Below are positions 4,705 to 17,805 of a DNA stretch of 64,000 bases, in pieces. The stretch is from Pseudooceanicola sediminis (lineage in GTDB: Bacteria > Pseudomonadota > Alphaproteobacteria > Rhodobacterales > Rhodobacteraceae). How positions within the stretch are numbered: the stretch's first letter is position 1; the number at the start of each line of letters is the position of its first letter. Below the pieces are notes generated by a model. That model made no database searches, was not told the DNA's origin, and saw only the letters and a program-made list of their open reading frames with translations. A program made the translations under genes and the position numbers. The stretch is taken from contig NZ_QWJJ01000016.1 of the NCBI RefSeq assembly GCF_003575965.1, positions 1 through 64,000 on the forward strand, given 5' to 3'.

Positions 4705-5142
4705 TCAGCTGGCGCGCAGGCGAAAGACCCCCGTGGCGCGGGCTGACAATGTGCCCAGATCGTCGGTGATCGTCGCTTCGGCAAAAAACGTCCTGGCACC
4801 GCCGCCGGTCCGTCTTCCTTCGGCGATCAGGGTCGTACCCTTCATCTGGCCGATGAAGTTCACGCTGAGATTCAGCGTCATCGCCAGGTTGCGGTTTTCC
4901 GGATCGCCGGTGTAGGCGCCTGCGTAGCCCATGGCGGTGTCGCACATCAGCGAATGCACCCCGCCGTGCAGGATGCCGTAGCGGTTCATCAGGAAATCCT
5001 CCATCGGCAGTTCAAAGCGGGCGTAGCCCTGTGTCCAGTCGGTGATGTAGAAGCCGATGTGCCTTTGCAGCGGGTATGGGGGTTCAACCAGGGCCGGGTC
5101 GATCCTGGGTTCTGAGTTGGACGCGACGTTGCGGTCAGACAT
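4705..5142 (-). CDS. PaaI-type hotdog acyl-CoA thioesterase
   Basis: Single hotdog-fold protein of 145 residues predicted to hydrolyse an acyl-CoA thioester to the free acid and CoA. The active-site region is RYGILHGGVHSLMCDTAMGY (residues 54-73), with the HGG motif and the acidic residue of PaaI-like enzymes. The start MSDRNVASN at 5142 is chosen because the frame further upstream lies within the next gene. It is the last gene of a nine-gene acyl-CoA operon and may relieve CoA trapping or release a product. The substrate cannot be read from the sequence. Confidence 0.87.
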   Translation of the reverse strand: MSDRNVASNSEPRIDPALVEPPYPLQRHIGFYITDWTQGYARFELPMEDFLMNRYGILHGGVHSLMCDTAMGYAGAYTGDPENRNLAMTLNLSVNFIGQMKGTTLIAEGRRTGGGARTFFAEATITDDLGTLSARATGVFRLRAS

Positions 5143-5162
5143 GGGGCCTTCTTCCTGTTCGT

Positions 5163-6194
5163 TCAGACGGTGCGGGCGGCATCGAGGCCCGCCGAGGCAA
5201 AGCGCGGCACGAGGGCCCCCATCTTGAGGGCGCGTTCCGGGTTCGAGGCATTGCCGTCGAGGGCGCGCTTGTAGACGCCCTGGATGATGCCTGCCATGCG
5301 GAACAAGGTGAAGGCCTGGTAAAAGCCAAACCCCTCGATCCCGGAAATATCTGCGTGCTGGCAGTAGGCATCGATGAAGGCGGCGTCGCTCATCAGGCCC
5401 TGCGCGTCGCGGTCCAGTCCCGCGAGGCCGCGCCCATCGGGGCCTGCGGGCATGTTCCATTGCATGATCACGGCGGCGACATCCGCAAACGGGTGGCCGA
5501 TGGTCGAGAGTTCCCAATCCAGCACCGCAGCAATGCGGGGGCGGTCCTTTTCGAACAGCATGTTGTCGATACGGAAATCGCCATGCGCCAGCGTACGGCG
5601 CCCGTCATCGGCGGGGATGTTGGTGTCGAGCCAAGGGATCAGTTCTTCCATCGCCGCGATCCTGTCGGTCTCGGAGGCGCGGTATTGTTTGGTCCAGCGG
5701 TCGATCTGGCGGCGGTAGTAATTGCCGGTGGGGCCATAGTCGGAAAGGCCCGTCGCGGCGAGGTCGGTTGCATGGATTGCCGCGAGGACGCGGGCGATTT
5801 CCAGGTGGATCGGGCGGCGGTCCGCGACTGCCAGTTCGGGCAGGTCGGGCAGGTTGAAGTGGCGGCCCTGTACCTCGTCCATGACATAGAAGGGCGAGCC
5901 GATGACGCTGTCATCCTCGCACAGCACGTGCATTTTCGCGACCGGCACATCGGTCTCCGCCAAGGCCTTTTGCACGCGGAATTCGCGTTCGACCGCGTGG
6001 GCGGATTTCAGCAGCACGCCGGGCGGCTTGCGGCGCAGCACGTAGCGATGCGTCGGCGTGGTGAGGCGATAGGTGGGGTTGGACTGGCCGACATCGAACT
6101 TTTCGGCCCGTGCGGGGCCTTCGAAGCCGGGCAGGTGGCCGCGCAGCCAATGCTCGATTGCGGGCAGGTCCAGCTGGTTGGCATCTTTGGTCAT
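5163..6194 (-). CDS. Phosphotransferase, ACAD10/11 N-domain type (LvaA-like)
   Basis: Aminoglycoside-phosphotransferase-fold kinase of 343 residues. It shows the ATP loop GQSNPTYRL (36-44), the catalytic HGDFRIDN (204-211) and the metal-binding LDWELSTIGHPFADVA (225-240). This subgroup corresponds to the kinase domain of eukaryotic ACAD10/11 and to LvaA of levulinate catabolism, which phosphorylate 4-hydroxyacyl-CoA so that a partner dehydrogenase-fold enzyme can remove phosphate. It sits in an operon of beta-oxidation genes, between a histidine phosphatase and a thioesterase. A matching ACAD11-type dehydrogenase is encoded at 28217-29437. Family firm, substrate inferred. Confidence 0.88.
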   Translation of the reverse strand: MTKDANQLDLPAIEHWLRGHLPGFEGPARAEKFDVGQSNPTYRLTTPTHRYVLRRKPPGVLLKSAHAVEREFRVQKALAETDVPVAKMHVLCEDDSVIGSPFYVMDEVQGRHFNLPDLPELAVADRRPIHLEIARVLAAIHATDLAATGLSDYGPTGNYYRRQIDRWTKQYRASETDRIAAMEELIPWLDTNIPADDGRRTLAHGDFRIDNMLFEKDRPRIAAVLDWELSTIGHPFADVAAVIMQWNMPAGPDGRGLAGLDRDAQGLMSDAAFIDAYCQHADISGIEGFGFYQAFTLFRMAGIIQGVYKRALDGNASNPERALKMGALVPRFASAGLDAARTV

Positions 6195-6202
6195 GGCGGC
6201 CT

Positions 6203-6865
6203 CTAGCTGTAGGTCAGCAGGCGGTCTGCGGTGTCCGCCGTGATGAAGGGGGTGTCGTTGAAGCCGTGCAGGTAGCAATTGCGCGGCGAATAGACGAAGC
6301 GGGTGACCGCGCAGTTCTTGGTTTGCAGTTGCAGGGCCGTCTGGGTCTGGGGCGGGGCACCGAGTACGGCGGCGGTCATCTGGCCGATCGCGCCGCCAGA
6401 GGAGACGGCGAAGACGGTGGCGTCATCGCGCATCAGGTGGGCACGGGCGGCCTCGACCCGGGCCACGAAATCCGGCCAGGGTTCGGGGGCGTTTGCGATC
6501 TCGCCCCGCTGCCAGAGGTCCACGGTATCGCGCAGGGTGCGAAAGTGGCTCTTGCGGTCGTCGTGCAGGCCTTCGGGGGCGTCGCCGCCCGCAAAACGGG
6601 CGTTGAGCAGGGCCTTGAAGTCGAACTCGGACAGGCCGGGGTGAACCTCGGGCTGGGCGCTGTGCCCCATGCCGCGCAGGATCCCCTCCAACGTGTCGCG
6701 CTGGCGGCGCAGACCGCCGTGGGCGGTGCGGTCGGGCCGCACGCCTTGCGCCGCGAACCAGGCCCCGAGCGCCTGGGACTGTTCGTGCCCTATGTCGGAG
6801 AGCACGTCATAATCCGCAGCGCCGAAAGAGGCCTGGCCGTGACGTATGAGGTACAGGATGCCCAA
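6203..6865 (-). CDS. Histidine phosphatase (phosphoglycerate mutase-like)
   Basis: Branch-2-fold histidine phosphatase of 220 residues. The catalytic RHG (residues 8-10, in LIRHGQAS) is followed by an acidic SEFDF segment and a late SSGGAIG motif carrying the usual second active-site region. The start codon is TTG, 3 bases after the stop of the thiolase gene, so it is read through the operon. Within this operon a phosphatase next to an acyl-CoA-type kinase is notable: it could remove phosphate from a pathway intermediate or from a misphosphorylated product. It could equally be a generic phosphatase. Substrate unknown. Confidence 0.83.
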   Translation of the reverse strand: MGILYLIRHGQASFGAADYDVLSDIGHEQSQALGAWFAAQGVRPDRTAHGGLRRQRDTLEGILRGMGHSAQPEVHPGLSEFDFKALLNARFAGGDAPEGLHDDRKSHFRTLRDTVDLWQRGEIANAPEPWPDFVARVEAARAHLMRDDATVFAVSSGGAIGQMTAAVLGAPPQTQTALQLQTKNCAVTRFVYSPRNCYLHGFNDTPFITADTADRLLTYS

Positions 6866-6868
6866 GGG

Positions 6869-8071
6869 TCAGAGCACCTCGAACAGGCCGGCCGCGCCCA
6901 TGCCACCGCCGACGCACATGGTGCAGACGACGTATTTCGCGCCGCGCCGCTTGCCTTCGATCAGGGCGTGGCCGACCATGCGGGCGCCGGACATGCCGTA
7001 GGGATGGCCGACCGAGATTGCGCCGCCGTTGACGTTGAGGATCTCGTCCGGGATGCCGAGGACGCGGGCCGAGTGCAGGACCTGGCAGGCGAAGGCTTCG
7101 TTCAGTTCCCACAGGCCGATGTCGTCCATTTTCAGCCCGTGCGCCTCGAGCAGTTTCGGCACGGCGTAGATCGGGCCGATGCCCATCTCGTCCGGGTTCA
7201 GGCCGGCGGCCATGACGCCGACGTAGCGGCCAAGCGGCGCGAGGCCGCGCTTTTCGGCCTCGCGCCCTTCCATGATGACGCAGGCAGAGGCCCCGTCGGA
7301 GAGCTGGCTGGCGTTGCCTGCGGTGATGAACCTGCCCTGCGCGACCTGCTGGCCGTCCTTGAAGACGGGGTCGAGGGAGGCGAGATTTTCCAGCGTGGTG
7401 GAGGGGCGGTTGCCTTCGTCCTGTTGCAACGTGACCTCCTTGAAGGAGACTTCCTTGGTCTGCTTGTCCATGACGCCCATGGTGCTGGTCAGCGGCACGA
7501 TCTCGTCATCGAACTTGCCCGCCTGCTGGGCGGCGGCGGTGCGTTGCTGGCTGCGCAGGGCGTATTCATCCTGATCGTCGCGGCTGACGTTGTAGCGTTC
7601 GGCCACGATCTCGGCGGTTTCCAGCATCGACATGTAGAGCGCGGGCATGTGTTCGTTGATCCAGGGATCGCGGGCGCGGTCGGTGCGCATGTTCTGGTTC
7701 TGCACGAGAGAGATCGATTCGACCCCGCCGCCGATGGCGATCTGCATGCCGTCGTGGATCACCTGTTTCGCCGCCGTGGCGATGGCCATCATGCCCGAGG
7801 CGCACTGACGGTCCATCGACATGCCCGCGATGGTGTCGGGCAGCCCGGCGCGGATCACCGCCTGCCGTGCGATATTGCCGCCGGTGGAACCCTGTTGCAG
7901 GGCGGTGCCGATCAGGCAGTCCTGAATTTCCGAGCCATCCAGACCGGCGCGGCTGACCGCATGTTTCACGGCGTGGCCGATCAGCTCCTGTCCTTGGGTG
8001 TTGTTGAAGGCACCGCGAAAGGCCTTGCCGATGGGGGTGCGGGCGGTGGAGACGATGACTGCGTCACGCAT
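6869..8071 (-). CDS. Acetyl-CoA acyltransferase (thiolase)
   Basis: Thiolase of 400 residues that cleaves a 3-ketoacyl-CoA with CoA into acetyl-CoA (or propionyl-CoA) and a shortened acyl-CoA. The acyl-accepting Cys is C90 in [10 protein letters not shown]. The catalytic His is H356 in [10 protein letters not shown], where most family members have GHPIGASGAR. The second Cys is C386 in CVGGGMG. It closes the beta-oxidation cycle of the operon: dehydrogenases, MaoC hydratase, SDR dehydrogenase and thiolase are all present. The Tyr-Gly-Met variant of the His motif may reflect an unusual substrate. Confidence 0.94.
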
Positions 8072-8100
8072 GGGAGTATCCTTGGAAAATGTCAGGGAAA

Positions 8101-9027
8101 TCAGGTTTCGGGAAGCTCGATGCCACGCTTTTCGGCGGCCATCCGGGCGTATTTGCGGGTCTGGGCGAAGGCGCCGGGCATGACCTGCTGGCCGTCTTGC
8201 GCGCGGATCCGGTCCATCGCGGCAAAGATCGTGTCGGGGTCGAGGTCGGCGTCCGAAAAGGCGAGGCCTTCGGTTTCATAGATGCGGGTTTCGGTGAAAC
8301 AGCCGCCACCTGCACCGAGGATCATGCGGCTGGGCGCGTCTTCGTGCAGCAGGGTCAGCAGGCCGGGCGTGATGGTTTCGGGGCGCAGCAGGTCCAGCAC
8401 CTGCTGGGGCAGCAGGCCCTCGGTCATGCGGGTCGCGGCGGTCGGGGCCAGCAGGTTGGCGCGGATGTCGAATTTCGCGCCTTCCTGGCAGAGCACGTTC
8501 ATCAGCCCGACGAGAGAGGCCTTGGCCGCGCCATAGTTCGACTGGCCGAAGTTGCCGTAGAGCCCCGAGGCAGAGGTGGTGTAGACGATGCGCCCGTACT
8601 GGTTTTCGCGGAAATGATCCCAGAGCGCCTTGGTTGGCACGACGGAGCCCATCAGGTGCACATCGACGACGCGTGCGAAATCCGACAGGTCCATCTTGGC
8701 AAATGTCTTGTCACGCAGGATGCCTGCGTTGCAGACGAGGATGTCGACGCGGCCCCATTTGGCGATGGCGGTGTCGACCATGTCCTGCACCTGTTCGGCG
8801 TCGGTCACGTTGGCACCGTGGGCGATGGCGTCACCGCCCGCCGCGCGGATTTCCGCAACCACGGCATCTGCCTGCGCGGTGGAGGTTCCGGTGCCATCGG
8901 TGGCCACGCCGAGGTCGTTGACCACGACGCGTGCGCCGCGCGCGGCAAGGCCGAGGGCATGGCTGCGGCCAAGGCCGACACCGGCGCCGGTGACAATGGC
9001 CACGCGGCCGTCAAATCTGATCGTCAT
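8101..9027 (-). CDS. SDR dehydrogenase, (3R)-hydroxyacyl-CoA dehydrogenase type
   Basis: Classical short-chain dehydrogenase of 308 residues, NAD(P)-binding [19 protein letters not shown] motif [11 protein letters not shown], and the catalytic Ser-Tyr-Lys in [20 protein letters not shown]. Length and the NDLG segment after strand 2 resemble the dehydrogenase half of peroxisomal multifunctional enzyme 2 and bacterial Hsd4A of steroid side-chain oxidation. It likely oxidises the (R)-3-hydroxyacyl-CoA made by the MaoC enzyme encoded just upstream, which overlaps it by four bases (9024-9027). The C-terminal 60 residues extend beyond a minimal SDR. Confidence 0.9.
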
Positions 9028-9494
9028 GCAGTCTCTCCAAAATAGCGCCGCCCAAGCCATTCCGCGACAAGGGCCGGTTTGTCCTGACCCTCGATCTCGA
9101 CCGTCACGGTCATCGTGGTCTGGATTTCTGTCGGGCGGATGTCGTCGATCCGGTCGAGCGTGAAATGGCCCCGGATCCGCGCGCCCGAGGGCACGGGGCT
9201 GATGAAGCGCACCTTGTTCATTCCGTAGTTCACGCCCATCACCGCGCCTGCGACGGCGGGCATTTCATAGACCATCGCCGAGAGCATCGAGAGGGTCAGG
9301 AAGCCATGCGCGATGGTGGTGCCAAAGGGCGTTTCGGCGGCGCGCGCGGGGTCGATGTGGATGTACTGGTGATCTTCGGTGCAGTCCGCGAAGGCGTCGA
9401 TGCGGTCCTGCCCGATCTCGTACCAGCGCGAGGTGCCGATGGTCTGGCCCACCCTTTCCTGAAATTGTGCGCGGGTCAGGGTCTGGCTGGTCAT
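9024..9494 (-). CDS. MaoC-family enoyl-CoA hydratase
   Basis: Hotdog-fold (R)-specific enoyl-CoA hydratase of 156 residues. The hydratase-2 motif reads TEDHQYIHIDPARA followed by GTTIAHGFLTLSM, with the catalytic Asp and His in place. It should add water to the 2-enoyl-CoA formed by the two acyl-CoA dehydrogenases of the operon. Both ends overlap neighbours by ATGA: 9491-9494 with the preceding SDR and 9024-9027 with the following one, so three genes are tightly coupled. Confidence 0.92.
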   Translation of the reverse strand: MTSQTLTRAQFQERVGQTIGTSRWYEIGQDRIDAFADCTEDHQYIHIDPARAAETPFGTTIAHGFLTLSMLSAMVYEMPAVAGAVMGVNYGMNKVRFISPVPSGARIRGHFTLDRIDDIRPTEIQTTMTVTVEIEGQDKPALVAEWLGRRYFGETA

Positions 9495-10318
9495 GCGTCA
9501 TCCTCCAGGAACGCCGCCTGTGCGGTGGCGACCTGCATACCGCCCGACAGCGGGATGATCGCGCCGGTGATATAGCTGCCGCCGCGCCCGCAGAGGAATT
9601 GCAGGGTGCCGGCGATATCCTCTTCGCGACCGACCCGGCCCAGCGGGACCGATGCGGCAGTCTTGGCGCGCCCTTCCTCATGGCCGATGGCAAAGGCCAT
9701 CATCTTGGACATGAAGGGCCCCGGCGCGATGGCGTTGACGGTGATGCGGTCGGCGGCCAGTTCATTGGCCAGCACGCGGGTCATGTGGTGCACCGCGCTT
9801 TTCGAAACGGCATAGGAATAGGCGCCCTGACCCTTGGGGATTTCGCCCATGACCGAGCCGACGTTGACGATGCGCGCGGGGTCGTCATCGGTGGCCGCGG
9901 CGCGCAGCAGATCCAGCAGGGTCTGCGTCAGGTGGAACATGCCGGTGACGTTCAGCCCCAGCACCTTGCCCCATGCCTCATAGGGAAAGTCGCCCATCGG
10001 CGCGCCCCAGGTGCGGCCCGCGTTGTTCATCAGGATGTGCAGCTTGTCGGTGCGCGCGCGCAGATCCCGGGACAGGGCCGTGATGCCCGCCTCGGTGCCG
10101 ACATCGCCGCCGAAGCCTTCGGCGGTGCCGGGCAGGCCGAGGGCGTTGAGGTCCTCGGCCACCGCCGCGCAGGCCTCGGCCTTGCGCGAGGCGATCAGCA
10201 CGCGTGCGCCAGCGGCAACCAGCCCTTCGGCGGCCATGCGGCCAATGCCGGTGGCTCCGCCGGTGACAAGGGCGACCTTGCCCGAGAGATCGTTGAGGGT
10301 GTGTGGTGTCATCTGCAT
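9491..10318 (-). CDS. SDR family oxidoreductase (second in operon)
   Basis: Short-chain dehydrogenase of 275 residues: TGGATGIGRMAAEGL for nucleotide binding, NNAGRTWGAP, and the catalytic Tyr-Lys in YSYAVSKSAVHHM. The C-terminal YITGAIIPLSGGMQ is typical of classical SDRs. It belongs to the rhamnolipid/3-oxoacyl reductase-like group and may act on a hydroxyl or keto group elsewhere on the substrate, since the operon already has a dedicated 3-hydroxyacyl-CoA dehydrogenase. The start could be MQMT at 10318 or MTPH at 10312. Confidence 0.88.
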   Translation of the reverse strand: MQMTPHTLNDLSGKVALVTGGATGIGRMAAEGLVAAGARVLIASRKAEACAAVAEDLNALGLPGTAEGFGGDVGTEAGITALSRDLRARTDKLHILMNNAGRTWGAPMGDFPYEAWGKVLGLNVTGMFHLTQTLLDLLRAAATDDDPARIVNVGSVMGEIPKGQGAYSYAVSKSAVHHMTRVLANELAADRITVNAIAPGPFMSKMMAFAIGHEEGRAKTAASVPLGRVGREEDIAGTLQFLCGRGGSYITGAIIPLSGGMQVATAQAAFLEDDA

Positions 10319-10319
10319 G

Positions 10320-11444
10320 TCAAAAGCCCCTTGCGGCTGCGACGCGGGCGGCGTGATAGCCGTAATCGCCCAGCCATTCCGCGCCGACGCGGGCGCGTTT
10401 CATGAAAAATCCCATGTCGAAATCATCCGTCATGCCGATGCCGCCGTGCATCTGCACGCCTTCGCTGACCGCCAGTTTCGCGGTTGCCGTGGCGCGGGCC
10501 TTGGCGACGGAAACGGCCAGCGCGGCCTCCTCCGGGGTTTCGTCCAGGACGCGCCCGGCGTTTGCGATGGCGCTGGCGGTGATCTCGATCTCGCTCCACA
10601 GATGTGCGGCGCGGTGTTGCAGGGCCTGAAAGCTGCCGATGGTGCGGCCGAACTGGCGGCGGTCCTTGAGATAGGCGGCGGTCATGCCGAAGGCGCCTGC
10701 GGACAAGCCCAGCAATTCGCCCGCCAGCGCCGCCTGCCCGGCGTTCAGGGCGGGGCGCAGGACGGTCATGGCATCGTCGAGCGTGCCCACCACGTCCGCG
10801 CCGGTGGCGGCGACATCGGTCAGGTCAAGCTGCGCGTGGTCGCGGCTGTCGATGGTGGGGCGCGCGGTGCGGGTCACGCCCGCACGGTCGGCGTCGATAT
10901 CGAACAGCGTCAGGCCCTGCGCGTCACCGGGGCTGCCGGAGGTGCGGGCGAGGATCAGCAGGCGGGTGGCACTGGCCCCGTCGGCCACAAAGCGTTTCTG
11001 GCCGGTCAGGCGAAATCCGTTGCCGCTGGCCGCGGCACGCAGGGCGGTGGCTTCGGGGGCGTGCTTGGTGCCCTCGTCCACCGCCAGCGCATAGGTGACG
11101 TCACCGCCCGCGATGTCGGTCAGGCGCGCGTGCGCTGCGGCGCGCAGGGCCGTGGCGGCGATGACGGCGGTGGAGAGGAACGGCGAAGCGGCGAGGACCT
11201 CGCCCATTTCCTCGGCCAGGATGCCGGCGGCGCGGTGCCCCATGTCGGCGCCGCCCGCATCCTCGGGCACCAGCACCCCGGCCCAGCCCATCTGTGCCAT
11301 TTCGCGCCAGAGGCCGGGGTCAAAGGGGCGGTTGGCGTCACGGTTGTCACGCAGGGCCGACACCGGGCTGGCATCGGCCAGAAAGCCACGGGCCGCGTCG
11401 CGCAGCATCACTTCATCCGTCGTGGGGATCAGACTTTGCGTCAT
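10320..11444 (-). CDS. Acyl-CoA dehydrogenase subunit lacking catalytic Glu (beta-like)
   Basis: Acyl-CoA dehydrogenase-fold flavoprotein of 374 residues. It keeps FAD-binding features in RRQFGRTIGSFQALQHRAAH and the C-terminal QMHGGIGMTDDF. The usual C-terminal catalytic segment (the Glu of an EGT-like motif) is missing; the corresponding stretch is GAEWLGDYGYHAAR. The adjacent upstream gene encodes a second dehydrogenase that keeps the Glu. Such pairs form alpha2beta2 enzymes in steroid side-chain oxidation (ChsE-type), where only one subunit supplies the base. I infer a heteromeric enzyme here. Confidence 0.88.
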   Translation of the reverse strand: MTQSLIPTTDEVMLRDAARGFLADASPVSALRDNRDANRPFDPGLWREMAQMGWAGVLVPEDAGGADMGHRAAGILAEEMGEVLAASPFLSTAVIAATALRAAAHARLTDIAGGDVTYALAVDEGTKHAPEATALRAAASGNGFRLTGQKRFVADGASATRLLILARTSGSPGDAQGLTLFDIDADRAGVTRTARPTIDSRDHAQLDLTDVAATGADVVGTLDDAMTVLRPALNAGQAALAGELLGLSAGAFGMTAAYLKDRRQFGRTIGSFQALQHRAAHLWSEIEITASAIANAGRVLDETPEEAALAVSVAKARATATAKLAVSEGVQMHGGIGMTDDFDMGFFMKRARVGAEWLGDYGYHAARVAAARGF

Positions 11445-11453
11445 CGAATGTTC

Positions 11454-12647
11454 CTATTGGGTCGGCAGTTGCAGGACGCGTTTGGACAGGATGTCGAGCA
11501 TCACCTCGCTGGTGCCGCCCTCGATCGAATTGGCCTTGGTGCGCAGCCAGTCGGGGGCGAGCGCGCCCTGCGGGCCGTCCCATTCCACGCCGTCGCTGCC
11601 GCTGACGGACATCAGAAGTTCATAGCGGCGCTTGTTCAGCTCGGTCCCGGCGTATTTCAGCATGGCGCTGGCATCGCCGACGCCGCCCTGCCTGGCCATG
11701 TCACCGTAGCGTTCCAGCGTCATGGCGGTGGCGAGGCTGTCGATTTCCAGCATCATCGCCTCGGCTCGCAGGATGGGATCGGCCATGATGCCCGGGTCTT
11801 GCGTCGCAAGGAACGCGCCGAGAGAGCGCCCGCCCAGCAGGCCACGCGCCCCGCCGCCGATCATTTCGCGTTCGTGGGTCAGCAGATGCTTTGCCACGTC
11901 CCAGCCGCCGTTCAGCGCGCCCACGATTCGGGAATTGCCGTTTTCATCCACCTTGGGGACGATGACGCCGTCAAAGAACGTCTCGCAGAAGGGCGATGCG
12001 CCCGAGATCAGGCGGATGGGGCGGGTGGTCACGCCTGCCGCCTCCATGTCGATCAGCATGAAGGAGATGCCCTTGTGCTTTGGCGCGTCGCGGTCGGTGC
12101 GCACCAGCGCAAAGATCCAGTCCGCCTGATCGGCATAGGATGTCCAGATTTTCGAGCCGGTGACGACCCAGTGATCGCCGCGATCCTCGGCGCGGGTCTG
12201 GACCGAGGCGAGGTCGCTGCCTGCGCCCGGTTCGGAATATCCCTGACACCAGCGAATCTCTCCGCGCGTGATCTGGGGCAGGTAGTGAAGCTTTTGTTCA
12301 TGCGTGCCGAAGGCCAGCAGGGCAGGGCCAAGCATCCACAATCCGAAGCTTTCCAATGGTGTGGGTGCGCCGAGACGGGCCAGTTCCTCGCGGTAGATCT
12401 TGTCCTGCGCGCGGGTCAGCCCGGCCCCGCCATATTCGACCGGCCAGCGTGGCGCGGTCAGCCCTTCGGCGGCGGCGGCCTGCATCCAGTCGCGCTGTGC
12501 GTCGCTGTCGAAGGTCCAGCATTTGCCGCCCCAGCATATCTGATGGTCGGAGGGCGCGCGATTGCGCAGGGAGGGGGCGCAATGCGCCTCGATCCAGGTT
12601 GTGATTCCTGCGCGGAAACGCTCTGGTTTCTCAGAAAAGTCAAGCAT
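11454..12647 (-). CDS. Acyl-CoA dehydrogenase subunit with catalytic Glu (alpha-like)
   Basis: Acyl-CoA dehydrogenase of 397 residues and first gene of the nine-gene operon. Motifs: QGYSEPGAGSDLAS for acyl/FAD contact, VTGSKIWTSYADQADW, and the C-terminal NSIEGGTSEVMLDIL in which Glu376 is the expected base. It is separated from the next dehydrogenase gene by 9 bp, consistent with a heteromeric complex. The ATG at 12647 faces the substrate-binding protein gene of a Liv-type transporter across 142 bp, so a shared regulatory region controls uptake and catabolism. Confidence 0.92.
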   Translation of the reverse strand: MLDFSEKPERFRAGITTWIEAHCAPSLRNRAPSDHQICWGGKCWTFDSDAQRDWMQAAAAEGLTAPRWPVEYGGAGLTRAQDKIYREELARLGAPTPLESFGLWMLGPALLAFGTHEQKLHYLPQITRGEIRWCQGYSEPGAGSDLASVQTRAEDRGDHWVVTGSKIWTSYADQADWIFALVRTDRDAPKHKGISFMLIDMEAAGVTTRPIRLISGASPFCETFFDGVIVPKVDENGNSRIVGALNGGWDVAKHLLTHEREMIGGGARGLLGGRSLGAFLATQDPGIMADPILRAEAMMLEIDSLATAMTLERYGDMARQGGVGDASAMLKYAGTELNKRRYELLMSVSGSDGVEWDGPQGALAPDWLRTKANSIEGGTSEVMLDILSKRVLQLPTQ

Positions 12648-12789: not shown

Positions 12790-14025
12790 ATGCGATCAAC
12801 TAGGACTGCCGTTCTCGCGGCTGCCGTTTCTGCGATTGCCGTGACGGCAGCGCATGCGGATACGATCAAGATGGCCTTTATCGACCCGCTGTCGGGCGCG
12901 ATGGCATCATCGGGTGAACCGGCGCTGCAATCTTTCATGCTGGCGGCCGAACACATCAATGCAAACGGCGGCGTGAATGGCGACGACATCGAGATCGTCG
13001 GCTATGACAACAAGGTCAGCCCGAAAGAATCGCTGGTGCAATTGCAGAAGGCGATCGACAGCGGCGCGCGCTATATCATCCAGGGCAACGGGTCGTCCGT
13101 GGCCTCGGCGATCATCGAGGCGGTGAACAAGCACAACGCCCGTAACCCCGGCGAAGAGGTGATTTTCTTCAACTATGCCGCTGTGACGCCCGCCTTCACC
13201 AACGAAGCCTGCTCGTTCTGGCACTTTCGGTTCGATGCCCATACCGACATGAAGATGAACGCCATCACCGATTGGGTCGCCAAGCGTGACGACATCAAGA
13301 AGGTCTACATCATCGGTCAGGACTATGTTCATGGCGAGGCCGTCGCGGCCGCGGCCGTGTCGCAGCTGAAGGAAAAACGCCCCGACATCGAGATCGTCGG
13401 GAACGAGCTGCATCCGCTGGCCAAGGTCAAGGATTTCACCCCCTACGTGCAGAAGATCATCTCGTCCGGGGCGGATGCCGTGATCACCGGGAACTGGGGT
13501 CAGGACATGACGCTGCTGGTCAAGGCGGCAGCCGACGCTGGCCAGAAAATTCCATACCTGACCTTCTATGGCGGGTCGAACGGTGCAGTTGCCGCACTGG
13601 GTGAAGGGGCCGTCGACACCCTGTACCAGGTCAGCGAAGGCGTCACCAACCTGGAAGCTTCGGACGAACAGTACGCGATGATCGAGGAGTACAAGGAGCG
13701 TTTTCCGCAGTACGATTATTACTACGACCGCGCCTTTACGACGCTTCAGATGTTCGATGCCGCCGCCGAGAAAGCCGGCAGCGTCGAGCCGATCGCGGTG
13801 GCCAATGCCATGGAAGGCCTTGAGGTTGACGCGGCCTATGGCCCGGCCACCATGCGCGCCGAAGATCACCAGTTGCAACAGAACCTGTTCGTGACCACGG
13901 TGGCAAAAGACGTCAAGTACGGCGTCGACAACACCGATCTGGGCTGGAGACTGGTGGACGGCGGCAAGATTTCCGCCGAGGCGGCCTCGACGCCGACGAC
14001 CTGTCAGATGGAACGGCCCGAGTAA
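12790..14025 (+). CDS. Liv-type ABC transporter substrate-binding protein
   Basis: Periplasmic binding protein of 411 residues, type-1 fold (Peripla_BP_6). A signal peptide with cleavage after AHA (residue 23) leads to DTIKMAFIDPLSGAMASSG, the usual first strand of the family. A strong GGAGG stands about 8 bases before the ATG at 12790. It begins a five-gene transporter set read away from an acyl-CoA degradation operon. The ligand is probably a carboxylate degraded by that operon instead of a branched-chain amino acid, but this is inference. A hairpin encloses its stop codon. Confidence 0.92.
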   Translation: MRSTRTAVLAAAVSAIAVTAAHADTIKMAFIDPLSGAMASSGEPALQSFMLAAEHINANGGVNGDDIEIVGYDNKVSPKESLVQLQKAIDSGARYIIQGNGSSVASAIIEAVNKHNARNPGEEVIFFNYAAVTPAFTNEACSFWHFRFDAHTDMKMNAITDWVAKRDDIKKVYIIGQDYVHGEAVAAAAVSQLKEKRPDIEIVGNELHPLAKVKDFTPYVQKIISSGADAVITGNWGQDMTLLVKAAADAGQKIPYLTFYGGSNGAVAALGEGAVDTLYQVSEGVTNLEASDEQYAMIEEYKERFPQYDYYYDRAFTTLQMFDAAAEKAGSVEPIAVANAMEGLEVDAAYGPATMRAEDHQLQQNLFVTTVAKDVKYGVDNTDLGWRLVDGGKISAEAASTPTTCQMERPE

Positions 14026-14124: not shown

Positions 14125-15057
14125 ATGGAAACGGTTGTCTTTGCCGTGCTGAATGGCGTGATCTACGGGCTTCTGCTCTTCATGCTGTCCAGCGGGCTGA
14201 CGCTCATCTTTTCGATGATGGGGGTTCTGAACTTCGCCCACGCCAGCTTTTACATGCTGGGGGCCTATTTCGCCTATACGTTGATGGAGGGGTCCAACTT
14301 CTGGATCGCGCTGTTCATTGCCCCGGTTCTGGTCGGGTTGGCGGGCATGGTGGTGGAGCGGTACGGGCTGCGCAAGGTGCACGCCCGGGGCCACGTGGCC
14401 GAGCTGTTGTTCACCTTCGGGCTGGCCTATCTGATCGACGAGGTCGTCAAGATCTTCTGGGGTCGGACGGCGGTGAATTACAAGGTGCCGGAGCTGCTGG
14501 ATTTTCCGCTGTTCACGCTCTATGGCGCGCAATACCCCGCGTACCGCATCTTTATCCTGCTGGTGGCCATCCTGATGCTGGTCGCGTTGTGGTATCTGCT
14601 GCGCCGCACACGGGCGGGCCTGATCATTCAGGCCGCACTGACCCATCCGCATATGGTGGGGCACCTGGGGCATAACGTGCCGATGATCTTCATGATGGTG
14701 TTCGGCGCGGGCTGTGCGCTGGCGGGCCTGGCCGGGGTCATCGGTGGCAATTACTTCATCACCGATCCGGCGATGGCGGTGCAGATGGGGCCGATCGTCT
14801 TTGTGGTCGTGGTGGTCGGCGGGTTGGGCAGCCTGGAGGGCGCGTTCATCGCCGCGATGATCATCGGGCTGCTGCAAACCTCGGCGGTGTCGATCAACGC
14901 ATCGCTGGCCGATATCTTTGGCTTTCTGGGGCTGGCGGGCACATCCGAGGTCGGCGGGATCACCATCGCCTCGATGGCGCCGATGCTGCCGTTCCTGTTG
15001 CTGGTGGTGGTGCTGATGGTGCGACCGACCGGATTGATGGGAGACCGTGAGGTATGA
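14125..15057 (+). CDS. Liv-type ABC transporter permease (LivH family)
   Basis: Inner-membrane permease of 310 residues with about eight hydrophobic helices. It opens with VVFAVLNGVIYGLLLFMLSSG and carries the LivH hallmark NFAHASFYMLGAY near residue 35. It ends with a long hydrophobic segment and MVRPTGLMGDREV, typical of this family. The stop overlaps the start of the second permease (ATGA at 15054-15057). It should pair with the LivM-type protein to form the translocation channel. Confidence 0.94.
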   Translation: METVVFAVLNGVIYGLLLFMLSSGLTLIFSMMGVLNFAHASFYMLGAYFAYTLMEGSNFWIALFIAPVLVGLAGMVVERYGLRKVHARGHVAELLFTFGLAYLIDEVVKIFWGRTAVNYKVPELLDFPLFTLYGAQYPAYRIFILLVAILMLVALWYLLRRTRAGLIIQAALTHPHMVGHLGHNVPMIFMMVFGAGCALAGLAGVIGGNYFITDPAMAVQMGPIVFVVVVVGGLGSLEGAFIAAMIIGLLQTSAVSINASLADIFGFLGLAGTSEVGGITIASMAPMLPFLLLVVVLMVRPTGLMGDREV

Positions 15058-16322
15058 CCGACATGACAACAACCTACGTCGATCTGGCCCCCAGCCGGGC
15101 CGAAAAGTTTCGCCAGCGCGTGCTGCCGATGATCCTGTTCGCACTGGCGCTGGCGGTGATCCCGCTGTTCGGGCCGTCGCGTTCGACGCTGACGCTGCTG
15201 AACCACATGGGGATCAACATTGTCTTTGCCCTGTCGTTCAACATGCTGCTGGGCCGTGCCGGGATGCTGTCCTTCGGCCATGCGGTTTACCTCGGGCTGG
15301 GCGGTTATTTCTGCGTGCACGTGATGAACTGGATCGCGGCGGACACCGGGATCTGGGGCGCGGTGCCGATCTTTACCATGCCCGCCTTCGGGTTTGGCGC
15401 AGGGGCACTGGCCGGGGCCGTCATCGGCTGGCCGTCGTGCCGCCGGGCCGGCACACCCTTCGCGATGATCTCGCTCGGCGTGGCCGAGCTGGTGGCGGCG
15501 GCGGGCTTCATGTTCGACAGCCTGTTCGGGGGCGAGATGGGGATTTCGGCCGACCGCATGGGCGGGCCTGAGTTCCTCGGCCTGTCGCTGGGGCCGCTGA
15601 ACGAAGTCTACTGGTACATCGCCTTCTGGACCTTTGTCGGTGTCGTCGGCACCTATGCCTTTACCCGTACGCCGCTGGGCAAGCTGAGCGAGGCGACGCG
15701 CGACAACCCCGAGCGGGTCGAGTTCGTCGGCTATAATCCGCAGCGCGTGCGCTATCTGGTGTTCATCTTCGCCGGGGCCTTTGCCGGTATGGCCGGGGGC
15801 ATGTCCGCCGTTCAGGATGAGATCTTCACGCCGGAAAACCTGTCGCTGGTGCCCTCGGGTGCGATCCTGATCGCGGCCTATGTGGGCGGCATCCGGTATT
15901 TCACCGGGCCGATCATGGGCGCCATCGTGATGACCTACATGGGCAGCAACCTGAGCGATTATACCGCCGGATGGCTGTTGTACCTGGGGCTGATGTTCGT
16001 CGGCGTCGTGATGTTCGTGCCCGACGGGATTGCCGGTGTCGTCTATGGCACCTGGGATGTGCTGCGCAGTGGCAGGCTGAACGAGGTCGCGGCCGGTTGG
16101 GCCATCCGCCTGCTGGGGCTGGCGCTGATGGCGGTCTCGACCATCACACTGGTCGAAGTCGCCTTTCGCTGGTCGGATGGCTATGGCGAGGTGTTCGAGC
16201 CGTTCGGTCTGGAACTGGCGCATGGCAGCCCGCTGACCTGGGTGGTGATCGTGCTGCCGTTTGTGATCGGTGCGCTGCTGCTGCGCCGGGTGGCCCGCAG
16301 CGAAAGCGAGGTGACGTCATGA
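15054..16322 (+). CDS. Liv-type ABC transporter permease (LivM family)
   Basis: Inner-membrane permease of 422 residues. The family segment NIVFALSFNMLLGRAGMLSFGHAVYLGLGGY is shown by NMLLGRAGMLSFGHA around residue 63. The protein is about 80 residues longer than a minimal LivM: after the core it has two extra hydrophobic segments (LGLALMAVSTITLV and WVVIVLPFVIGALLL). It overlaps both neighbours by ATGA, so permeases and ATPases are translated as one coupled unit. Confidence 0.93.
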   Translation: MTDMTTTYVDLAPSRAEKFRQRVLPMILFALALAVIPLFGPSRSTLTLLNHMGINIVFALSFNMLLGRAGMLSFGHAVYLGLGGYFCVHVMNWIAADTGIWGAVPIFTMPAFGFGAGALAGAVIGWPSCRRAGTPFAMISLGVAELVAAAGFMFDSLFGGEMGISADRMGGPEFLGLSLGPLNEVYWYIAFWTFVGVVGTYAFTRTPLGKLSEATRDNPERVEFVGYNPQRVRYLVFIFAGAFAGMAGGMSAVQDEIFTPENLSLVPSGAILIAAYVGGIRYFTGPIMGAIVMTYMGSNLSDYTAGWLLYLGLMFVGVVMFVPDGIAGVVYGTWDVLRSGRLNEVAAGWAIRLLGLALMAVSTITLVEVAFRWSDGYGEVFEPFGLELAHGSPLTWVVIVLPFVIGALLLRRVARSESEVTS

Positions 16323-17086
16323 GTAACGAAGCATTGCAACTGATTGATCTGAAAAAGTCCTTTGGACCGGCCAAGATCATCCAGGGCGTCAACCTGCAGG
16401 TGGCCAAGGGCGAAAGACATGCCATCATCGGGCCGAACGGCGCCGGTAAATCGACACTGTTCAACCTCATCTCGGGGCGGTTCCTGCCGACCTCGGGCGA
16501 GATCTGGCTGAATGGCGACAAGATTTCCGGCAAGAAACCGTTCGAGATCAACCGCATGGGATTGTCGCGCAGTTTTCAGGTGTCCAACATCTTTACCAAC
16601 ATGACGGTGCGGGAAAACGTCCGCTGTGGCGTGCTGTATTCGATGGGCTATGGCTATTCCTTCTGGCGCAACATCGGCAACCTGCGGGAAGTGTCGGAAA
16701 AGACCGCCGCAATTCTCGAGGATGTCGGGCTGATCGACAAGGCGCATCTGCCTGCGACGCTGCTGCCCTATGCAGACCAGCGGACGCTGGAAATCGCCAT
16801 CACCATCGCGGGCGGGGCCGAGGTGATCCTGCTGGATGAACCGACCGCGGGGATGAGCCATTCGGAAACCGACCGCGCCGTGGCGCTGATCGAAAAGGCC
16901 AGCCAGGGCAAGACGTTGCTGATCGTCGAACATGACATGGGCGTGGTGTTCAACCTGGCCGACCGGATCAGCGTGCTGGTCTACGGAGAGATCATCGCGA
17001 CCGGCACACCGGAGGAGATCCGCGGCGATCCGAAGGTGCGCGAAGCCTATCTGGGCGAGGAAGTCGAAGAGGGAGTGCCGGCATGA
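16319..17086 (+). CDS. Liv-type ABC transporter ATPase (LivG family) with altered signature motif
   Basis: ABC ATPase of 255 residues. Walker A GPNGAGKST is intact (K44), Walker B ends in catalytic E174 (ILLDEPTAGMS), and the switch His is H205 (VEHD). The ABC signature is altered: where relatives have L-S-Y-G-[DQ]-Q it reads LPYADQR (149-155), losing both the Ser and the Gly that contact the ATP gamma-phosphate in the partner subunit. This changed signature faces the Walker A of the LivF-type partner, which is also changed. ATGA overlaps join it to both neighbouring genes. Confidence 0.93.
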   Translation: MSNEALQLIDLKKSFGPAKIIQGVNLQVAKGERHAIIGPNGAGKSTLFNLISGRFLPTSGEIWLNGDKISGKKPFEINRMGLSRSFQVSNIFTNMTVRENVRCGVLYSMGYGYSFWRNIGNLREVSEKTAAILEDVGLIDKAHLPATLLPYADQRTLEIAITIAGGAEVILLDEPTAGMSHSETDRAVALIEKASQGKTLLIVEHDMGVVFNLADRISVLVYGEIIATGTPEEIRGDPKVREAYLGEEVEEGVPA

Positions 17087-17805
17087 ACGTCGCCACCAAT
17101 ATCGAGCCGATGCTGGCCATCAGGGACCTGCACGCCTATTACGGCAAATCCCACGTTCTGCACGGCGTGAACATGGAGATCATGCCGGGCGAGGTGATCG
17201 CGCTGCTGGGTCGCAACGGAGTCGGGCGCTCGACCACTGCCAAGGCGATCATGGGCGAGGTCAGTCCGATCGGGTCGATTCGGTTCAAGGGACAGGAGAT
17301 TTCCGGTCTGGCGAACCACAAGATCGCTCGGCTGGGGTTGGGCTATGTGCCCGAAAGCCGCGACATCTTTCCGGCGATGACGGTGCGCCAGAACCTGCTG
17401 CTGGGGATCAAGGACATGCGCCGGCCGGGCAAGTGGAACATCCAGCAGATGCTGGACATGTTCCCCAACCTGGCGCGGCGCGCGGACAACCCGGCGGGGG
17501 TCCTGTCGGGTGGTGAAAAGCAGATGCTGACCATGTGCCGGACGCTGATGGGCGACCCGGACCTGATCATCATCGACGAGCCGACCGAGGGCCTGGCGCC
17601 GCTGATCGTGCAGCAAGTCGGTGACATGATTGCAGAAATTGCCAAGGCCGGGGTGTCGATCCTGCTGGTCGAGCAAAAGCTGTCGATCGCGCTGCGCATC
17701 GCTGACCGGGTCTACGTGATGGGCCACGGAGAGATCGTCTATGGCGGGACGCCCGACGATTTTGCCACCCGCGACGATATCCGAAAGGAATGGCTGGAGG
17801 TCTGA
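17083..17805 (+). CDS. Liv-type ABC transporter ATPase (LivF family) with Walker A Lys-to-Arg change
   Basis: ABC ATPase of 240 residues. The signature LSGGEKQ (141-147) and Walker B IIIDEPTEGLAP with E166 are normal. Walker A reads GRNGVGRST (43-51): Arg49, codon CGC at 17227-17229, replaces the phosphate-binding Lys. All three codon positions differ from AAG, so this is not a single-base error. The H-loop residue is Gln198, as is common in LivF proteins. With the LivG-type partner's altered signature, one composite ATP site is predicted to be degenerate. Last gene of the transporter operon, followed by a strong terminator. Confidence 0.94.
   Translation: MNVATNIEPMLAIRDLHAYYGKSHVLHGVNMEIMPGEVIALLGRNGVGRSTTAKAIMGEVSPIGSIRFKGQEISGLANHKIARLGLGYVPESRDIFPAMTVRQNLLLGIKDMRRPGKWNIQQMLDMFPNLARRADNPAGVLSGGEKQMLTMCRTLMGDPDLIIIDEPTEGLAPLIVQQVGDMIAEIAKAGVSILLVEQKLSIALRIADRVYVMGHGEIVYGGTPDDFATRDDIRKEWLEV

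Follow-up and report, generated by a model that had tools for sequence, protein, structure and literature searches.

The two ATPases of a Liv-type importer encoded in the window (the whole stretch of DNA analyzed here, 64,000 nucleotides from Pseudooceanicola sediminis) depart from the canonical motifs in a complementary manner. In LivG the nucleotide half is intact and the signature is poor, and in LivF the reverse is true; if the two proteins pair, every departure falls in one composite ATP site. In the clade to which this pair belongs, departure at no fewer than five of the six LivF-side positions is fixed. A sequence-only reading of the locus had reported Arg49 in place of the Walker A Lys of LivF and LPYADQR in place of the LivG signature, and had placed both in the same composite site, with the other site intact. 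Both changes were confirmed from the letters of the window, and the arrangement proved to be conserved in 117 unique pairs. The extent of the defect had been understated, as the Q-loop Gln and the switch His of LivF also are gone (replaced by Glu and Gln, respectively), and the interpretation was too narrow. The stronger statement is that a one-sided site spans all of the Liv-type pairs sampled, with the window's clade the most changed.

The transporter locus

The locus is a five-gene set of a binding protein, two permeases and two ATPases, in which LivG and LivF come last (Table 1). The order of the permease and ATPase genes is that of Escherichia coli LivFGHMK/J. The gene content is that by which HAAT (Liv-type) importers are recognized: two BPD_transp_2 proteins, a Peripla_BP_6 protein and two adjacent ABC ATPases, with a BCA_ABC_TP_C tail on LivG that scores 50.0 bits against a cut-off of 25.5. 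The ATPase pair lies below the NCBIfam equivalog cut-offs for LivF/LivG (176.5 of 441 and 184 of 362 bits) and for UrtD/UrtE (203.4 of 304.1 and 222.5 of 285.8 bits). Its highest NCBIfam scores are those for UrtD/UrtE, and by score it is best regarded as kin to both the Urt and the Liv family.

Table 1. Features of the transporter locus (window coordinates)
Feature	Coordinates	Strand	Remark
Periplasmic binding protein	12790..14025	+	Peripla_BP_6
LivH-type permease	14125..15057	+	BPD_transp_2
LivM-type permease	15054..16322	+	BPD_transp_2
LivG-type ATPase, 255 aa	16319..17086	+	C-terminal BCA_ABC_TP_C
LivG Walker A GPNGAGKST, canonical	16430..16456	+	Lys in 256/256 readable pairs
LivG Q-loop Gln87, canonical	16577..16579	+	Gln in 259/259
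LivG signature LPYADQR, non-canonical	16763..16783	+	L149-R155
LivG Ala152 replacing signature Gly	16772..16774	+	codon GCA
LivG catalytic Glu174, Walker B LLDEP	16838..16840	+	
LivG switch His205 (VEHD), canonical	16931..16933	+	His in 259/259
LivF-type ATPase, 240 aa	17083..17805	+	overlaps LivG by 4 bases
LivF Walker A GRNGVGRST	17209..17235	+	non-canonical, Arg49
LivF Arg49 codon CGC	17227..17229	+	replaces Walker A Lys
LivF Glu91 (VPESR) at Q-loop Gln place	17353..17355	+	Glu in 231/259
LivF signature LSGGE, canonical	17503..17517	+	SGG in 259/259
LivF catalytic Glu166, Walker B IIDEP, kept	17578..17580	+	
LivF Gln198-Lys199 (VEQK), Gln198 replacing switch His	17674..17679	+	QK in 117/117 clade 1 pairs

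Conservation of the changes in the window's clade

Close relatives of the locus were collected from other genomes with search peptides that exclude residue 49. Arg was found at LivF position 49 in 80 of 80 such loci (79 read directly and one, L098, in its other frame), which by their record titles come from Alpha-, Beta- and Gammaproteobacteria. These loci give 74 unique pairs, in which the signature Gly position of the partner LivG is occupied by Ala in 57, Ser in 9, Pro in 8 and Gly in none. In all, 117 unique pairs (the window's own and one frameshifted pair included) combine LivF Arg with LivG Ala, Ser or Pro for the signature Gly. The hallmarks of this clade (clade 1) are Arg, [VI]EQK, with Ile as the first letter in one pair, and LivG LxY[ASP].

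Over the 131 rows with Arg, six codons are used for it (CGC 66, CGT 31, CGG 26, CGA 5, AGA 2 and AGG 1; the codon of L098 in this tally is an out-of-frame reading), which indicates that the amino acid itself is kept. Chance is ruled out as the source of Arg49 by the 80/80 relatives and the six codons, and so is a sequencing slip, already judged unlikely in the sequence-only reading. The exceptional locus L098 is a MAG copy in which LivF is frameshifted just past Walker A; its Walker A alignment columns are out of frame, and the correct frame also gives Arg.

In the clade 1 LivF, the Walker B Asp and Glu are present in 117/117 pairs, the A-loop Tyr is present in 116/117 (one gap), and the glycine loop is present in 116/117, the exception being the frameshifted L098. 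LivF S-G-G-E is invariant, while positions 2, 4 and 5 of the LivG signature vary. Retention of these nucleotide-half residues beside a varying LivG signature fits a site in which ATP has to be bound and hydrolysis is dispensable. A Lys directly after the LivF switch residue is found in 117/117 clade 1 pairs, in 1 of 128 pairs with a Walker A Lys in LivF (Lys pairs) and in 0 of 14 pairs of a second Arg clade (clade 2), which is described below.

One-sidedness across the Liv-type pairs sampled

The wider survey comprised 287 adjacent LivF-LivG pairs, of which 259 were unique. They were drawn from similarity searches for LivF-type proteins (class and phylum) and LivG-type proteins (class) and from 60 further stretches, which are part of the similarity-search places without a locus. 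Apart from the named loci of the close-relative search, all pairs are from the window's phylum, and an Arg-only pattern supplied the loci behind 46 of the 259. At the Walker A position, LivF has Arg in 131 pairs and Lys in 128, with nothing else seen in the 259 (46 of them chosen for Arg); the 213 pairs left without those 46 comprise 85 with Arg (83 lacking the signature Gly and 2 having it) and 128 with Lys. At the switch position of LivF, Gln occurs in 241 pairs, Lys in 17 and Pro in 1, and His never; its Q-loop position has Glu in 231 pairs, Gln in 27 and Asp in 1. LivF therefore lacks the switch His in 259/259 and the Q-loop Gln in 232/259, and the asymmetry is wider than clade 1. The same three positions of LivG are Lys (256/256 readable), His (259/259) and Gln (259/259), and the LivF signature S-G-G is present in every pair.

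Each composite site was scored at six positions, namely, the Walker A Lys, Q-loop Gln and switch His of one protein and the signature Ser, Gly and Gly of its partner. This was possible for 255 of the 259 pairs; three with LivG cut before Walker A and one with a signature gap were excluded. No departure was found on the LivG side in any of the 255. On the LivF side there was one departure in 8 pairs, two in 12, three in 42, four in 57, five in 54 and six in 82, and all 82 of the last belong to the window's clade, in which the 114 scorable pairs have either five (32 pairs) or six. Read from its letters, the window pair scores 6/6 on the LivF side and 0 on the LivG side, so that by sequence one composite site is canonical and the other is not. 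Within this sample, the Liv family is characteristically one-sided, usually to a milder degree than in the window pair.

The eight pairs with one departure are nearly canonical on both sides (L010, L024, L224, L242, L246, L251, L253 and L254). They have LivG LSGGQ and a LivF Q-loop Gln, and only the switch residue (Gln) departs. Two of them lie in the window's own genome, and together they are a natural control for the one-site reading discussed below.

The same columns were read by eye in seven LivF sequences outside the sample, from E. coli, one actinomycete plasmid and five haloarchaeal plasmids; the six plasmid loci were hand-picked among 60 listed of 1574 records. The switch column is without His in 7/7, and the Q-loop has Glu in 6/7. 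In one of the seven (L334), a His stands one place after the switch column. The six LivG proteins adjoining these LivF proteins all have Lys, Gln and His; for L335, none was found by script.

Within the order, the Arg-only pattern matched 72 of 390 genomes, and among 249 genomes drawn from the phylum it matched 27; the window's own genome is counted in both. Of the 77 places listed for the order, the 30 that came as loci were read, in addition to L145, which was reached through the phylum search. The 30 comprise 24 clade 1 loci (the window's included), 3 clade 2 loci and 3 without an ABC reading. The 28 new loci from the phylum comprise 13 of clade 1, 11 of clade 2 and 4 that resemble exporter-type ABC proteins. 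L162 to L165 encode an exporter-type ABC protein of about 700 aa in three loci (the open frame is 587 in L164), with the Walker A GRNGAGRST; L162, L163 and L165, which were read with motifs, have a signature-like LPT[SA]FRQ with no Gly, and L164 was read for Walker A only.

Two origins of the Walker A Arg

To follow the Arg, a LivF tree was built from 165 of the 259 rows (LivF of at least 200 residues and less than 80% identity), with the Walker A column left out. The Arg label changes twice on this tree, and each of the two Arg clades is on a starred branch. It also changes twice on a careful tree of 55 of those 165 rows, none of 200 bootstrap trees needs just one change, and a single Arg clade was rejected (AU test, P = 0.0146). 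By these trees, Arg arose twice, once with loss of the signature Gly and once with the Gly kept. The second clade consists of L114, L117, L135, L146, L147, L151, L155, L157 to L161, L166 and L168. Its LivF has Arg in Walker A, VEQN and Walker B DEI, and its partner LivG has YG[RQ]KR, retaining the Gly.

The signature Gly is missing in 117 of the 131 Arg pairs and kept in 14; it is kept in 117 of the 128 Lys pairs, missing in 10 and unreadable in 1. It changes at least six times on the LivF tree and three times on the LivG tree, once at clade 1 and otherwise with Lys. A sign test on independent pairs had only two pairs and no power (P = 1). The sequence-only reading had suggested that Arg at Walker A and Ala in the partner's signature might co-occur among homologues. 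Inside clade 1 they do, on what the trees present as one joint event; elsewhere, Gly is kept with Arg and lost with Lys. As a general rule, the co-variation was rejected: the two changes share a single origin, the other gain of Arg left the Gly in place, and the Gly was also lost in Lys lineages. The ten Lys-type pairs with Gly loss are L007, L195, L212, L217, L227, L236, L239, L244, L247 and L248; in nine of these, the LivG Walker B ends in DEV, DEI, DEW or DES instead of DEP, and L227 has DEP.

A proposed division of labor between the two sites

The explanation that we consider probable, based on the sequence motifs, is that LivG and LivF form a heterodimer with unequal sites. The LivG-side site (Walker A, Walker B and His of LivG with the LSGGE of LivF) would hydrolyze ATP and drive transport. 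The LivF-side site (Arg49, Glu91, Glu166 and Gln198 with the LPYADQ of LivG) would still hold ATP, with slow or absent hydrolysis, and would act as a clamp or an allosteric site, in the manner of ABCG5/G8 and CFTR-type pumps. ATP binding on the LivF side is proposed because conservation extends to the glycine loop, the Walker B Asp and the A-loop Tyr. We infer from these motifs that the site is degenerate, meaning that it hydrolyzes little or no ATP. Several points count against this explanation. An Arg is still able to hold phosphate. The catalytic Glu, the loss of which is common but not universal at degenerate sites, is retained on the LivF side in 117/117 pairs. Eight of the 255 pairs depart at the switch residue alone, so that a switch Gln by itself may suit two working sites. 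Finally, a switch Gln is tolerated in NBS2 of ABCC1, where excerpts of PMC7756269 describe Gln and Asn mutants of the switch His with wild-type-like transport.

In the chief alternative, both sites hydrolyze ATP and the LivF side has been rebuilt and is not degenerate, Arg49 standing in for Lys, Gln198 standing in for His, and Lys199 adding charge. We regard it as unlikely, although the catalytic Glu and Walker B Asp are kept in 117/117 pairs, the Lys after the switch residue is fixed in clade 1 (117/117) and ABCC1 tolerates Gln at the switch place. The LivG signature Gly is gone, and signature positions 2, 4 and 5 drift on this side while the other site keeps S-G-G-E.

It is considerably less probable that the Arg is meaningless, the product of drift or GC-biased change at an unimportant site. 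Further changes at the same site are scattered across the family, as drift would have it. Nevertheless, position 49 holds only Arg or Lys in the 259 pairs (46 of them Arg-chosen), with Arg reached via six codons, and the partner LivG has Lys in every readable pair. GC pressure as the cause is disfavored by the similar median GC contents of the loci (0.622 for clade 1, 0.592 for clade 2 and 0.634 for the Lys pairs). Least credible of all are LivG-LivG and LivF-LivF homodimers with two half-defective sites each: no Liv-type complex was found among the best 60 of 102 and the best 60 of 91 PDB sequence matches to the two proteins, for which reason LivF-LivG pairing was taken from general ABC knowledge, but adjacent genes with complementary defects in 255/255 scorable pairs are most easily explained by mutual pairing, with one site alone free to change.

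Importers are commonly depicted as motors with two sites. If the heterodimer with one hydrolyzing site is the correct explanation, such pumps might use mainly one working ATP site. A bolder extension is that most Liv and Urt transporters, E. coli LivFG included, have one hydrolyzing site, that of LivG, with LivF holding ATP, and that the window's clade is the end state, in which Arg49 and Lys199 would hold a near-permanent structural ATP. We put this forward tentatively and think it rather doubtful; the eight near-canonical pairs led us to confine it to most of the family and to lower our confidence slightly. Were a common importer family single-site over most of its range, the view of how many ATP (one or two) are spent on each substrate would change in coupling models, and the reach would be much of bacterial amino-acid and acid uptake. 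The natural variants, with one to six changes, are a ready series with which to test the role of each motif.

Comparison with known systems

E. coli K-12 LivFG has, by eye, four of six departures on the LivF side and none on the LivG side, compared with six and none in the window. Its LivF shares the VPE Q-loop and VEQ switch with that of the window, and its LivG signature is LAYGDQ; E. coli keeps the Walker A Lys and the signature Gly, whereas the window pair has neither. The Urt pair of the window's own genome (L008) has UrtE VEQY, a partner signature LSHGQKQ and a Walker A Lys. The LivF-type structure PDB 1ji0, which we take to be Thermotoga TM1139, aligns with the window LivF in sharing VPE (VPEGR Q-loop) and VEQ (VEQN switch); it is a single chain solved alone and has a Walker A Lys where the window LivF has Arg. 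The LivG-type chain PDB 1g9x has LSGG at the place of the window's LPYA.

A close parallel outside the family, compared on Walker A and signature only, is ABCG5/ABCG8, an exporter of another fold and kingdom, in which the Walker A Lys likewise is Arg in one subunit and the partner signature is altered. Excerpts of PMC7756269 and PMC7756502 describe this site as inactive for hydrolysis. The Lys-to-Arg changes in ABCG5/G8 and in the window's clade probably are of independent origin; if the proposed mechanism is true, the same solution was arrived at separately in bacterial importers.

Among importers, excerpts of PMC11466899 describe RbsA and NupO of Bacillus subtilis as having one degenerate site, with no Walker A Lys and a deviating signature. 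These belong to another importer class and have two domains fused in one protein, unlike the separate LivG and LivF of the window. The sequence-only reading had known of no degenerate site described for a Liv-type importer. This agrees with searches of an open-access library, in which no listed title or abstract opening concerned such a site, and one-degenerate-site importers of other types (RbsA and NupO) already are in print. DppD and DppF both hydrolyze ATP, according to an excerpt of PMC12136057. Excerpts of PMC6703430 (LptB) and PMC2821768 provided further background.

Neighboring genes and a possible substrate

Upstream, on the minus strand (4705-12647), lie genes for a thioesterase, a phosphotransferase-family protein, a histidine phosphatase, a thiolase, two SDRs and two acyl-CoA dehydrogenases. 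One dehydrogenase was named by family search, and the rest were named by reading and from an annotated Sulfitobacter plasmid. The first dehydrogenase was matched in at least 39 of the 80 relatives and the thiolase was matched in at least 13 of the 80, the flanks being short. Branched-chain amino acids such as leucine are doubtful as the substrate because the neighboring genes suggest CoA-linked acid catabolism; a carboxylic acid that the cell processes as its CoA thioester seems likelier. On the Sulfitobacter plasmid (L314), four of these catabolic genes adjoin the same transporter.
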